NCBI GenBank assembly: GCA_947259315.1
Contig: CAMYLR010000006.1
Span: forward strand, 135,687 to 199,686
Reading direction: 5' to 3'
DNA from: an uncultured Gemmatimonadales bacterium
GTDB lineage: Bacteria; Gemmatimonadota; Gemmatimonadetes; JACCXV01; JAHWKZ01
DNA length: 64,000 nucleotides
Part shown: positions 19,907 to 25,011 of the stretch, in pieces
Layout of the letters: each line of letters starts with the position of its first letter
How positions within the stretch are numbered: the stretch's first letter is position 1
Notes under the pieces: model-generated
Told to the model about the DNA's origin: nothing
What the model saw: only the letters and a program-made list of their open reading frames with translations
Database searches by the model: none
Program-made: the position numbers and the translations under genes

Positions 19907-20833
19907 TTACGCCACCTCATGAGGATCAGCCAGCGCAGTCCGGGCTGCCGCCCGATCACGGCCTAGCTGCGCGGATAGCTCTTCGGGACCCTCAAAGCGT
20001 TTGACCGGCCGCAGGCGGCGCACGAACTCGATACCCACGAGGGCCCCATACAGGGGCTCGCCTGCCCAGTCGAGGAGGTGCGCTTCGAGTCCACCACCCG
20101 TCTCCTCGAACGTCGGTCGCGGGCCAAGATTGGCCATCGCCTCATGTCGCTCACCATCGATCTCGGCGAGAACCGCGTACACGCCCTCGGGAGGCAAACA
20201 CTTGTCGACTTCGAGCTCGAGGTTCGCCGTGGCAAAGCCAAGCGACCGTCCGCGGCCCGAGCCACGCACCACTCGGCCGTACGCCGAGTACGCGCGTCCC
20301 AGTCCGGACGCTGCGATGGAGAGATCCCCGTTCGCGATCGCGCCTCGGATCTTGGTACTGGAAACTGTCTCTTCACCCGACGTGACGGGCCCAACGACAT
20401 CGACCGAGAAGCCTTCCTCTACGCCCAAGCGACGCAACGTCTCGACGTCGCCTTTGCGGTCCTTGCCGAAGCCGTGATCGTAACCGATCACGAGCTCACC
20501 AAGCCTGAGCCGTTGCACCAGAACGTTGCGCACGAATGCTTCCGGTGAGAGCTGGCGCAGTCGATCGTCGAACGGCACCATGACCACGTAGTCGAGCTCG
20601 AACTGTGGCCACAAGAGCCGTCGCTCAATCGGCGTCGTTAACAAACATGGCGCTCGCTCCGGCGCGACAATTCGTAGCGGGTGCGGTTCGAAGGTCACCA
20701 ATACACTCTCGCGATCAGAGGCACGGGCGCGACGCACGATCTCTCTCAGGACTGCTTGATGACCACGATGGACGCCGTCAAAGGTCCCTACCGTTATGGT
20801 AGTGCGCCGTGAACCGGGCAAACCTGCAGTCAA
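19907..20833 (-). CDS. ribF: Bifunctional riboflavin kinase / FAD synthetase
   Basis: RibF makes FMN and FAD. The N-terminal nucleotidyltransferase domain shows TVGTFDGVHRGHQAVL (HxGH-type motif) and the ISSTKIR-like stretch SSTKIRGAIANGD. The C-terminal kinase domain shows GRVVRGSGRGRSLGFATANLE and GVYAVLAEIDGERHEAMANLG. No ATG fits. A TTG at 20833, two bases after the truB stop and near a GAGG, gives 308 residues, the normal size; a TTG at 20821 is the alternative, while the nearest upstream ATG would overlap truB by about 50 bases. Confidence 0.93.
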   Translation of the reverse strand: MTAGLPGSRRTTITVGTFDGVHRGHQAVLREIVRRARASDRESVLVTFEPHPLRIVAPERAPCLLTTPIERRLLWPQFELDYVVMVPFDDRLRQLSPEAFVRNVLVQRLRLGELVIGYDHGFGKDRKGDVETLRRLGVEEGFSVDVVGPVTSGEETVSSTKIRGAIANGDLSIAASGLGRAYSAYGRVVRGSGRGRSLGFATANLELEVDKCLPPEGVYAVLAEIDGERHEAMANLGPRPTFEETGGGLEAHLLDWAGEPLYGALVGIEFVRRLRPVKRFEGPEELSAQLGRDRAAARTALADPHEVA

Positions 20834-20835
20834 CG

Positions 20836-22113
20836 TCAGCGACCCTCGCCATCGGCGTACAGAATGCGACGTGGCGACAGCTGCCATCCATGCGGCTCTC
20901 GGTGAAGCTCCCCCAATCCGACAAACCCACGCGGTCCGTGAAGTTGGACCCAACCCTCCTCCTCCACGCTCGCGTCGAGTTCCCCGATCGTCTGACCGTG
21001 TACGACCGCCGATTGTTGAGACTCGCTCAACTCCATGATCGGCAGCTCTGCGACGGCGGTTGCTGAGGGCCGAATGGCCTCGCGCACGAGATCGGGCTCG
21101 CCCATGACATCCCAGCCGATAGCGGTCTCAACGGTGAAGGGTCCCGATCGAGTCCGCCTGAGCGCTGCGCAGTACCCACCTGTCCCGAGCGCTTCACCGA
21201 TATCACGTGCCAACGCTCGCATGTATGTACCACCACCGCATTCGACGGTCAGCTCCAACTCCGGAAAGACATACCTCTCGATCTTCAAGCTGTGAATCGT
21301 CACCTCGACGTCGGGTAGCGTGACGGTTTCGCCGGCTCGTGCTCGCTGATAGGCCCGCTTCCCCCCGACGTGTTTGGCGGAATACGCCGGCGGCGCCTGC
21401 GCCACACGCCCCGTCCATGCTCCACACACCTCGTCGATCATCTCACGCGTGGGCGCGACCACGCTCTCGGTCTCCGAAAGCTCGCCCTCGGGATCGTCGG
21501 TCGTGCTGCGCCAACCCAGCTGAACGGTGAGTTCGTATGTCTTGTCGTGCCCGCTGCAAAACGGCGCCAACCGGGTCGCAGGACCGATCGCGCAGACGAG
21601 CAATCCGGTTGCAAACGGGTCCAGTGTGCCAAAGTGACCCACCCGGCGCGTTCCCGTCGCCCGCCGAACGACCTGCACCGCATCGTGACTGGTTGGGCCG
21701 GCCGGTTTGTCGATCAATAAAATGCCGACCGGTTCTGGTGGGTCGCCGAGATCGGTCGCGGGGTCGCCCGGATGAAGGCCTCCCAGGATAGTTTCGATTC
21801 TAGCGGCCTCTTCCAGCGTCCGGTCAAGCTCGAACCGTAGCTCTGGCACGTACTTGAGCGTCACCGCATTACCCACCCGCGCGCGAACAAAGCCAGCCGC
21901 CCCACACAAGACCTCCAGCGTGGCCTGTTTTTCCTCCTCGCTGCCGAGCACACTGACATACACCCGGGCAGTTCTGAGGTCCGGTGCGCTCTCTACAGCC
22001 ATCACGGTCGCGAATCCGATCCGTGGGTCCTTGAGCTCCGTACTCAGGACAGCGGCGATCTCCTGCTTGAGGAGTTCATCAACTCGGCGTTTGCGTGGGT
22101 AACCGTGTGCCAT
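20836..22113 (-). CDS. rbfA/truB: RbfA-TruB fusion: 30S maturation factor joined to tRNA pseudouridine-55 synthase
   Basis: One uninterrupted 425-residue frame contains two proteins that are normally separate. Residues 1 to about 110 are RbfA, a KH-like 30S assembly factor, with RKRRVDELLKQEIAAVL, ELKDPRIGFATV and YVPELRFELDRTLEEAARI. After a short linker (about 112-128), TruB begins with PVGILLIDKPAGPTSHD. Its catalytic Asp is D165 in VGHFGTLDPFATGLL, and further conserved segments are KTYELTVQLG and GGGTYMRALARDIGEAL. Both halves look complete. It lies between DUF503 and ribF in the rimP-nusA-infB operon, where rbfA and truB are usually adjacent. Confidence 0.93.
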   Translation of the reverse strand: MAHGYPRKRRVDELLKQEIAAVLSTELKDPRIGFATVMAVESAPDLRTARVYVSVLGSEEEKQATLEVLCGAAGFVRARVGNAVTLKYVPELRFELDRTLEEAARIETILGGLHPGDPATDLGDPPEPVGILLIDKPAGPTSHDAVQVVRRATGTRRVGHFGTLDPFATGLLVCAIGPATRLAPFCSGHDKTYELTVQLGWRSTTDDPEGELSETESVVAPTREMIDEVCGAWTGRVAQAPPAYSAKHVGGKRAYQRARAGETVTLPDVEVTIHSLKIERYVFPELELTVECGGGTYMRALARDIGEALGTGGYCAALRRTRSGPFTVETAIGWDVMGEPDLVREAIRPSATAVAELPIMELSESQQSAVVHGQTIGELDASVEEEGWVQLHGPRGFVGLGELHREPHGWQLSPRRILYADGEGR

Positions 22114-22139: not shown

Positions 22140-22424
22140 TCAGTAGATTTCGGTCTGAACGTTGATGACGCGAAGCTCTGACTCCCTGTCGAGCAAGTCG
22201 AGGATCGAATCGAGGGTTTTCTCAACACTTCGTCGTTGACCGCTCACCACCGCAACCGCTATTTCGGTGCGCTGCCACTTGTCGAGGTGTCCGGTCTCCG
22301 CAATCGAGACGTTGAAGTGCTTGGAGATCCGATCCTTGATGCTTCTCAGGATGAATCGTTTCTCCTTGAGCGATTGTGAACCTTGGATGTGAACGTCGAA
22401 TGTGCCGAGACCGACGATCGTCAT
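22140..22424 (-). CDS. DUF503 (YlxP-like) protein
   Basis: This 94-residue protein matches the DUF503 family: an N-terminal VGLGTFDVHIQGSQSLKEKR, then SIKDRISKHFNVSIAETGHLDKWQRTEI (trimmed), and a C-terminal helix and strand ending VINVQTEIY. The family is common between infB and rbfA in many phyla, and its function is uncertain. Position here is exactly that: 12 bases after infB and 26 before the rbfA/truB gene. Confidence 0.93.
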   Translation of the reverse strand: MTIVGLGTFDVHIQGSQSLKEKRFILRSIKDRISKHFNVSIAETGHLDKWQRTEIAVAVVSGQRRSVEKTLDSILDLLDRESELRVINVQTEIY

Positions 22425-22436
22425 GGCGAGCTAACC

Positions 22437-24668
22437 TTAGGCCAGCGTGCGCTGTATTTCCTCGATCTTATACGCCTCGATGACGTCTCCGACCTTGACA
22501 TCATTGAAGCCCTCAACATTGATCCCGCACTCGAAGCCTTCGCGTACCTCGCGGACGTCATCCTTGAACCGTTTGAGGGAAGCGATCGCTCCCTCGTACA
22601 CCTCCACGCCGTCCCGCACCACGCGCACGCGAGCGGTCCTGGGTATGACGCCATCGGCTACGTGGCAGCCAGCGATGGTGCCCAGTCGCCCCACCTTGAA
22701 GGTTTTGCGCACCTCCGCCGAGCCAAGCACGACCTCTCGCTCCTCGGGTGCCAACAGACCCTCCATCGCCTTGCGCACGTCTTCAGCCACCTCGTATATC
22801 ACGCGATAGAGGCGGATGTCGACACCCTCTCGCTCGGCCGCCGCACGGGCACGAGCATCAGGTCGGACGTGGAATCCAATGATGATAGCGTTCGACGCGG
22901 CAGCCAAGACAACATCGTTCTCGGAGATCGCTCCGACGCCGCGGTGAATTACTGACACCTCGACCTCTTCCGTCGACAGCTTTGTCAACTCGTCCGCGAG
23001 TGCCTCGACCGAGCCTCCGACATCACCCTTGAGGATCACGTTGAGACGCTCGACGCGGCCCGCTTGAACCTGCTCATATAGCTCTTCGAGCGTGGTCGGC
23101 TCCTTCGTTCGACGGAACCCCTGCTCGCGCTGAAGCCGCTGTCGCTTCTGGGCTATGTCCCGCGTTTGACGGTCGCCCTCCAGCACTGCGAAAGAGTCAC
23201 CTGCCTCAGGCACACCGCTGATCCCCAATACGCGTATTGGCGTGGCCGGACCGGCATCGGTGACGTTCTTGCCCCGTTCGTCCAACAACGCGCGGACCTT
23301 CCCGTCGAACAGGCCGCAGATGAACGAATCCCCGAGTTTGAGTGTCCCGGTTGTCACGAGTATCGTCGCCAGCGGCCCCATACCCCGATCCAACTCCGCT
23401 TCGATCACCACTCCGCGGGCGGTTCGATCCGCGTTCGCCTTCAGATCCAGCAGCTCGGCCTGTAGCAGCACCCGCTCCAACAACTCTCCGACACCCTGAC
23501 CGGTCTTGGCACTGACTTCGGTCGCCAACACCTCTCCACCAAACTCCTCGATGATCACACCGTGGTTCGTGAGCTCTTGTTTGACCTTGTCGATTTGAGC
23601 TTCAGGGAGATCGATCTTGTTGATGGCGACCACGATGGGGACGCCCGCGGCCCGGGCGTGATCGATCGCCTCGATGGTCTGCGGCATTACGCTATCGTCA
23701 GCCGCAACAACCAGAATGACAATATCCGTGGTCTGGGCACCTCTGGCCCGCATCGCGGTAAACGCCTCGTGACCTGGTGTATCGATAAACGTCACCCGGC
23801 GGCCATCGCTCAGAGCGACTTCGTAGGCACCGATATGCTGAGTGATTCCACCCGACTCGCCAGCGATGACGTTCGCTTTGCGAATGTGGTCGAGCAGCGA
23901 GGTCTTTCCGTGATCGACGTGCCCCATTACGGTGATCACGGGTGGCCGGGTCGAGAGATCCTCCTCGCTTTCCTCAACATCTTCGGGCTCACTTACTACA
24001 AACGCCTCCTGCCTCTGTGCGGCATACCCAAACTCCTCGCAGATCAGGCTTATCGTGTCGAAATCGAGACGCTGATTCACCGTGACCATGAGTCCGAGAT
24101 CCATGCACGTGGCAATGATCTGAGTCGCCGGAACGCTGATTAGATCGGCCAGCTCAGCGACCGACACAAACTCGGTGACCTTGACCAGATTCTCCGGCTC
24201 GGCCTCGCTGACCTCTGGCGTTTCGCGACGGACTCGCTTCCTACGCCGCGTCCGGCCCTCCATCTTGGCCATCGTTTGGCGAATGTTCTGCTCGACCGCC
24301 TGTTGGTCGACTTTCCGACGTCTGCGGCGGCGACGACGACGGCGCGGTCCCTCTCGGGTTCGACCTTCTGTAGCAGCAGCTTTCTTGTCGGGTTTCGCTC
24401 CCGTCGCTTTGACCTGCGGCTTGGCATCCTCCCGCTTGGCGTGGCGCCGGCGCTTGGCCTCGTCGAGCTTCTTCTTTTTTTCCTCCTCAGCCTGCTTTAC
24501 AGCTTCTTTCTCGGCTTCGAACTTGGCGGCGACCTGAGCGATCGTCTCATCGTCGATCGAAGACATGTGGTTCTTGACCGGGACCTTCATCTCCTTGAGA
24601 AGATTGACCATCGCTTCGCTCGACACGTTAAAGCGCCTGGCAACTTCGTAGATTCGAACCTTAGCCAC
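22437..24668 (-). CDS. infB: Translation initiation factor IF-2
   Basis: IF-2 is the GTPase that places initiator tRNA and joins the subunits. The GTG at 24668, with an AAAGGAG eight bases upstream, gives 743 residues starting AKVRIYEVARRFNVSSEAM. A charged Lys/Arg-rich region (about 60-140) precedes the second IF2-N segment. The G domain shows VMGHVDHGKTSLLDHIRK, DTPGHEAF and NKIDLP. Domains II, III and IV follow, with the C-terminal GCHVADGVIPRTARVRV. The N-terminus is shorter than in enteric bacteria. It overlaps the L7Ae-like gene by eight bases. Confidence 0.97.
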   Translation of the reverse strand: MAKVRIYEVARRFNVSSEAMVNLLKEMKVPVKNHMSSIDDETIAQVAAKFEAEKEAVKQAEEEKKKKLDEAKRRRHAKREDAKPQVKATGAKPDKKAAATEGRTREGPRRRRRRRRRRKVDQQAVEQNIRQTMAKMEGRTRRRKRVRRETPEVSEAEPENLVKVTEFVSVAELADLISVPATQIIATCMDLGLMVTVNQRLDFDTISLICEEFGYAAQRQEAFVVSEPEDVEESEEDLSTRPPVITVMGHVDHGKTSLLDHIRKANVIAGESGGITQHIGAYEVALSDGRRVTFIDTPGHEAFTAMRARGAQTTDIVILVVAADDSVMPQTIEAIDHARAAGVPIVVAINKIDLPEAQIDKVKQELTNHGVIIEEFGGEVLATEVSAKTGQGVGELLERVLLQAELLDLKANADRTARGVVIEAELDRGMGPLATILVTTGTLKLGDSFICGLFDGKVRALLDERGKNVTDAGPATPIRVLGISGVPEAGDSFAVLEGDRQTRDIAQKRQRLQREQGFRRTKEPTTLEELYEQVQAGRVERLNVILKGDVGGSVEALADELTKLSTEEVEVSVIHRGVGAISENDVVLAAASNAIIIGFHVRPDARARAAAEREGVDIRLYRVIYEVAEDVRKAMEGLLAPEEREVVLGSAEVRKTFKVGRLGTIAGCHVADGVIPRTARVRVVRDGVEVYEGAIASLKRFKDDVREVREGFECGINVEGFNDVKVGDVIEAYKIEEIQRTLA

Positions 24669-25011
24669 GTCCGCACTCCTTTTGTGGATCCGGTTTCTGC
24701 GAAGCGACAATATCGGACAATCCACTGGCTATGTGGCGATCGGTGATCGTCAATGCGGCCACCGCCGCACGACCCGTGATCTCACCGAGTTCATCTTTGT
24801 TCCACCCATCGTACATAGCCACACCGTTTTCGTTGAGCCGGTCGACTAGGGTCTCCCTGCGTCTAGGACTCAGATCATCAGCCACCAATGTCGCTGCAGC
24901 CCGCCCCGCCTTCGCCGCGGCGCGCGTCTGCTGCACTCCGATCACGACCCGACCCGAGCGGCGTGCCTGCCGAATCAGGCCGTTGAAGCGAGGCTTGAGC
25001 GTCGGGCCCAC
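24661..25011 (-). CDS. L7Ae-family (YlxQ-like) putative RNA-binding protein
   Basis: The GTG at 25011 gives 116 residues and an ATG at 25035 would give 124; either begins at or just inside the nusA end. The core NGLIRQARRSGRVVIGVQQTRAAAKAG and LVADDLSPRRRETLVDRL follow the L7Ae/YlxQ pattern for kink-turn binding proteins. The usual operon order is nusA-ylxR-ylxQ-infB; here YlxR is absent and this gene abuts nusA directly. It overlaps the infB start by eight bases. Confidence 0.75.
   Translation of the reverse strand: MGPTLKPRFNGLIRQARRSGRVVIGVQQTRAAAKAGRAAATLVADDLSPRRRETLVDRLNENGVAMYDGWNKDELGEITGRAAVAALTITDRHIASGLSDIVASQKPDPQKECGRG

Follow-up and report, generated by a model that had tools for sequence, protein, structure and literature searches.

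Organization of the rbfA-truB locus

The window, a 64,000-nucleotide stretch of contig CAMYLR010000006.1 from an uncultured Gemmatimonadales bacterium, contains a gene in which RbfA and TruB are encoded by one open reading frame. A first-pass annotation had described a single 425-residue frame holding both domains at 20836-22113 without assigning a strand; the frame is present exactly there and is confined to the minus strand (22113→20836), the plus strand of this interval being interrupted by several stops. The 425-residue protein has a computed mass of 45.9 kDa, in line with the roughly 46 kDa anticipated. The features of the locus are listed below, with the basis of each assignment in parentheses.

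22437..24725, minus strand: infB (IF-2), upstream of the fusion (Pfam)
22140..22424, minus strand: DUF503 gene, upstream of the fusion (Pfam; same order in locus L031)
20836..22113, minus strand: rbfA-truB fusion gene, 425 codons, ATG start, TGA stop (profile matches)
21778..22113, minus strand: RbfA part, residues 1-112 (Pfam RBFA, AlphaFold2 model, PDB fold matches)
21727..21777, minus strand: linker, residues 113-129, about 17 residues (low AlphaFold2 confidence, species alignment)
20839..21726, minus strand: TruB part, residues 130-425, catalytic domain and C-terminal PUA-type domain (Pfam, fold match)
21715..21717, minus strand: TTG at Leu133, first in-frame potential start inside TruB (in both species that carry the fusion)
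21619..21621, minus strand: codon of catalytic Asp165, corresponding to E. coli TruB Asp48 (alignment)
19907..20953, minus strand: ribF ORF, downstream of the fusion (ORF list, from a TTG; FAD_syn domain)

The local gene order is infB-DUF503-[rbfA-truB]-ribF-rpsO, with a pnp-like ORF, named by eye, past rpsO. The general order nusA-infB-rbfA-truB-rpsO-pnp is common to the window, where nusA was named by eye from its translation, and to E. coli. In E. coli, however, rbfA and truB are two cistrons, which share one base at the rbfA end according to the annotated coordinates. Thus, separate neighbours are indeed the usual state of the two genes, as the first-pass annotation had held, both in E. 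coli and in the relatives with separate genes described below, and a STRING-based survey files the rbfA-truB pair under gene neighbourhood rather than gene fusion (PMC9514032). A scan for promoters and terminators returned nothing above chance. The infB-DUF503-fusion-ribF order is shared with a second species (genome G001, locus L031), and in both species the listed TTG start of ribF lies within the 3′-terminal part of the fusion gene (ribF ORF at 19907-20953 in the window; 3510-4556 in L031). The FAD_syn domain of the ribF ORF begins only at residue 49, and the true ribF start therefore probably lies at or just past the fusion stop.

Domains and linker of the fusion protein

Each half of the protein carries a complete domain, as had been claimed from the sequence. 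In the N-terminal part, Pfam RBFA (PF02033) matches residues 7-110 (E 8e-31; 106.8 against a cut-off of 34.7 bits) and TIGR00082 scores 93.4 bits against an NCBIfam cut-off of 51.15. An AlphaFold2 model, run on a 35-sequence alignment, gives this part high pLDDT and a KH fold composed of helices 6-25, 59-71 and 73-83, strands 36-42, 48-54 and 91-96, and a C-terminal helix, 99-112. The AxG sequence is an RbfA motif (PMC9032327), and the type-II KH interhelical kink is found here as A72-A73-G74, between helices 59-71 and 73-83. Foldseek matches to S. aureus and E. coli RbfA (8byv_A, 8bxa and 7afq) rank below those to TruB. The fusion thus shares with the RbfA family the complete KH domain, the AxG kink and the C-terminal helix, but its RbfA tail continues into TruB rather than ending. 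Loss of the C-terminal helix through the fusion was considered and is ruled out, as the helix is intact in the model.

In the C-terminal part, Pfam TruB_N matches residues 150-298 (E 4e-46), TruB_C_2 residues 299-332, and the PUA-type TruB-C_2 (PF09157) residues 358-417 (26.1 against a cut-off of 21 bits), while TIGR00431 scores 224.9 bits against an NCBIfam cut-off of 151.45. The first Foldseek match of the model is E. coli TruB (1k8w_A, E = 7e-30). Residues D165, Y193, R299 and L318 align with E. coli TruB positions 48, 76, 181 and 200, which we take to be active-site positions. The catalytic and C-terminal domains, catalytic Asp165 and the 1k8w fold are accordingly shared with the TruB family (TIGR00431, PF01509), from which the fusion differs in that its TruB has no start codon of its own and carries RbfA at its N-terminus. 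The target base is also present: position 55 is T in 51/51 ARAGORN tRNA predictions, a redundant set (overlapping loci) drawn from the loci of 30 of 44 tRNA matches, with ties broken toward TTC loops.

Conservation was assessed against 29 separate homologues (28 relatives and E. coli). Both fusions keep all 17 RbfA columns that are at least 90% conserved in this set, and all 54 such TruB columns with the exception of one conservative Val-to-Ile change.

The whole-protein model has a mean pLDDT of 91.7 and consists of two confident domains, an RbfA KH fold and a TruB fold; with a pTM of 0.70 it was read for the domain folds, and no packing between domains is claimed. Between the domains, pLDDT falls below 50 at residues 113-122. 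The description of this segment as a Gly/Asp/Pro linker is apt for its composition in the window, which is rich in these residues, but the sequence is not conserved between the two species: its codons 111-128 (n = 18) differ by 17 nucleotide changes and retain 56% amino-acid identity, with no indel.

Distribution and origin of the fusion

A genome-wide search of the window genome recovered a single match to each family, RbfA and TruB, both within the fusion frame, and found no extra copy of either gene. The suggested search of sister genomes located the fusion in G001 (contig DAOWHI010000029.1), a second species of the genus, where it is likewise 425 residues long, contains no stop and is 82% identical over residues 1-425. 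The fusion is thus known from two species, both represented by metagenome-type assemblies in many contigs. G001 was assembled independently of the window genome, and the two fusion genes align gap-free across many substitutions. This disposes of the concern that an indel at 21740-21800 had created the frame: a local sequencing or assembly error that took out a stop or frameshift is ruled out as the source of the fusion to the point where its probability is close to nil. Comparison of the two species by the NG86 method, using Biopython's experimental dN/dS routine, gave dN/dS of 0.06/1.00 for the RbfA part and 0.10/0.70 for the TruB part. Since synonymous change is large and amino-acid change small, purifying selection is strong on both domains alike. 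These data confirm the RbfA-TruB fusion as genuine, far beyond chance.

By contrast, the other genera of the order carry separate rbfA and truB genes, in different frames, in all four genomes (loci L003, L004, L005 and L026); in each of these a candidate truB start, set by position only, overlaps the rbfA stop by 4 bp. Among 61 genomes, 30 loci were collected, which leave 28 separate pairs once the two fusions are set aside. In two of the 28, L006 (G059) and L045 (G180), the two genes share a frame that is interrupted once, by a stop codon between them (TAG and TAA, respectively), and these pairs are one point mutation or readthrough away from such a fusion. In the other 26 the truB frame stays open ahead of the rbfA stop over 4-517 nt, and over at least 30 nt in 23 of them, so that a single indel near the end of rbfA, in its tail, would be enough to allow fusion of the pair. 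As a separate observation, the C-terminal tail of the unfused RbfA at L011 (902-1480) is acidic and unusually long, extending roughly 80 residues past the KH domain.

Across the phylum Gemmatimonadota, 395 genomes were drawn and 380 gave a match; among the matches listed, which reach down to about 197.7 bits and below which a weaker fusion could lie, only the two species of the genus (G000 and G001) show a stop-free match over both domains. A fused match would sum the scores of both domains, and a high rank is therefore expected for it. Ten single-match genomes were searched again: in eight the match covers one domain or part of one, while G180 and G059 span both with one stop between. Beyond the phylum, the search covered plasmid and viral contig collections. 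One place covers at least 80% of the query in 24 of 59 matching plasmid records, and 19 of the 20 plasmid matches listed are in two pieces; the one-piece match, S. meliloti pSymB (CP090106), was rejected as a fusion, since its annotation shows two genes separated by 12 bp. The viral contig collection gave no match. No description of an RbfA-TruB fusion was found in titles and abstract openings, mostly from outside subscription journals.

From these arrangements, we infer that a single indel was the joining event. Before the fusion, the rbfA stop and truB start would have overlapped in different frames; the indel would have shifted the RbfA reading into the truB frame and skipped the stop, and the joining would predate the split of the two species of the genus. 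Divergence of the linker from its counterparts in sister genera has obscured the exact joining mutation.

Implications for 30S maturation and tRNA modification

Taken together, the fusion is most likely a bifunctional protein, with two domains that fold and work independently, derived from an overlapping gene pair by an indel. RbfA is described as a gatekeeper that restrains the folding of h28 and of the h44/45 linker (PMC9032327), and bacterial TruB as responsible for U55 and also as a tRNA chaperone (PMC13270999). The N-terminal domain would assist late 30S maturation and the C-terminal domain would make pseudouridine-55 in tRNAs, presumably acting also as a tRNA-folding chaperone. The flexible linker would occupy the position of the natural RbfA tail of relatives. 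We infer that the cell produces the full-length protein and keeps it in one piece, with both activities persisting.

Two routes to a separate TruB bear on this last point. The single chain could be made and then cut within the linker to give two ordinary proteins in the cell; the predicted disorder of residues 113-122 and the variability of the linker sequence are compatible with this, but, when the two species are compared, the same variability leaves little conserved sequence that could serve as a cleavage site, and we regard cutting as improbable. Still less credible is that a separate TruB is additionally made from an internal start. Codon 133 is TTG in both species, but a start there would cost Gly130, which is conserved in TruB, and from codon 90 to codon 132 neither species contains an in-frame ATG, GTG or TTG, so that an internal start for full-length TruB is ruled out for lack of a suitable codon. 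No Shine-Dalgarno-like stretch was seen by eye upstream of TTG 133. If the chain is uncleaved, a 1:1 ratio of RbfA to TruB is automatic, and to this extent the earlier proposal of a fixed ratio stands; as the meaning of the fusion it is not borne out. Nor is the proposal that the fusion ties ribosome assembly to tRNA modification. In the phylum sample the fusion was seen in one genus only, and relatives use two proteins.

A functional link between the two halves was also weighed. TruB, carried on the RbfA helix whose S. aureus counterpart contacts S7, could alter the behaviour of RbfA on the 30S and so link subunit release to tRNA maturation, either through a larger block of the mRNA path or through easier RbfA release in a lineage without RsgA. 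The GTPase RsgA promotes release of RbfA from the mature 30S (PMC4436671; PMC9032327), and in E. coli mutations in rbfA that favour dissociation of RbfA suppress the loss of RsgA (PMC9032327). By TIGR00157, RsgA is absent from all six genomes of the order (G000-G005), where PF03193 gives sub-threshold matches only, and is above cut-off in 53/55 other relatives; RbfA release in the order should therefore be RsgA-independent. The two remaining genomes outside the order, G054 and G060, give no TIGR00157 match, and their rbfA and truB matches are separate. In S. aureus, RbfA touches S7 through its C-terminal helix, and the authors of that study suggest that in bacteria the mRNA-path block, which the extension of mitochondrial RBFA provides, may come from a different protein (PMC9917171). 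The fusion model retains the equivalent helix, 99-112, intact.

The tRNA pseudouridine synthase PUS1 belongs to the TruA family. In a study of human mitochondria that calls it a TruB homologue, PUS1 joins RBFA on the same small-subunit assembly intermediate, M1, a likeness to the present fusion; there, however, the two proteins are unfused and the PUS1 catalytic pocket faces away from the rRNA (PMC13294482). Against a functional link, RsgA loss is order-wide, yet the genes are separate in 4/4 other members, indicating that tolerance of the loss needs no fusion. RsgA loss and the fusion each look like a single event, so that their association carries no statistical weight, and the linker sequence is poorly conserved. 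On balance we consider such a link unlikely. Its more elaborate form is a longer shot still: an enlarged gatekeeper in which TruB, placed by the mRNA-exit side of the immature 30S, would block mRNA in the manner of the mitochondrial RBFA extension and, through tRNA capture or sheer bulk, would aid RbfA release, the licensing of new 30S subunits thereby keeping pace with tRNA maturation.

The bifunctional protein favoured here constitutes a natural covalent link of 30S assembly and tRNA modification. While rbfA and truB are common gene neighbours, we found no physical tie between their products described in the literature surveyed above. The fusion provides a ready reagent for asking if the two proteins ever share a site of action, a question sharpened by the presence of PUS1 on the RBFA-bound mitoribosomal intermediate and by the order-wide absence of RsgA. 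If the domains are independent, it would be a clean example of an overlapping gene pair fusing without a change of function.
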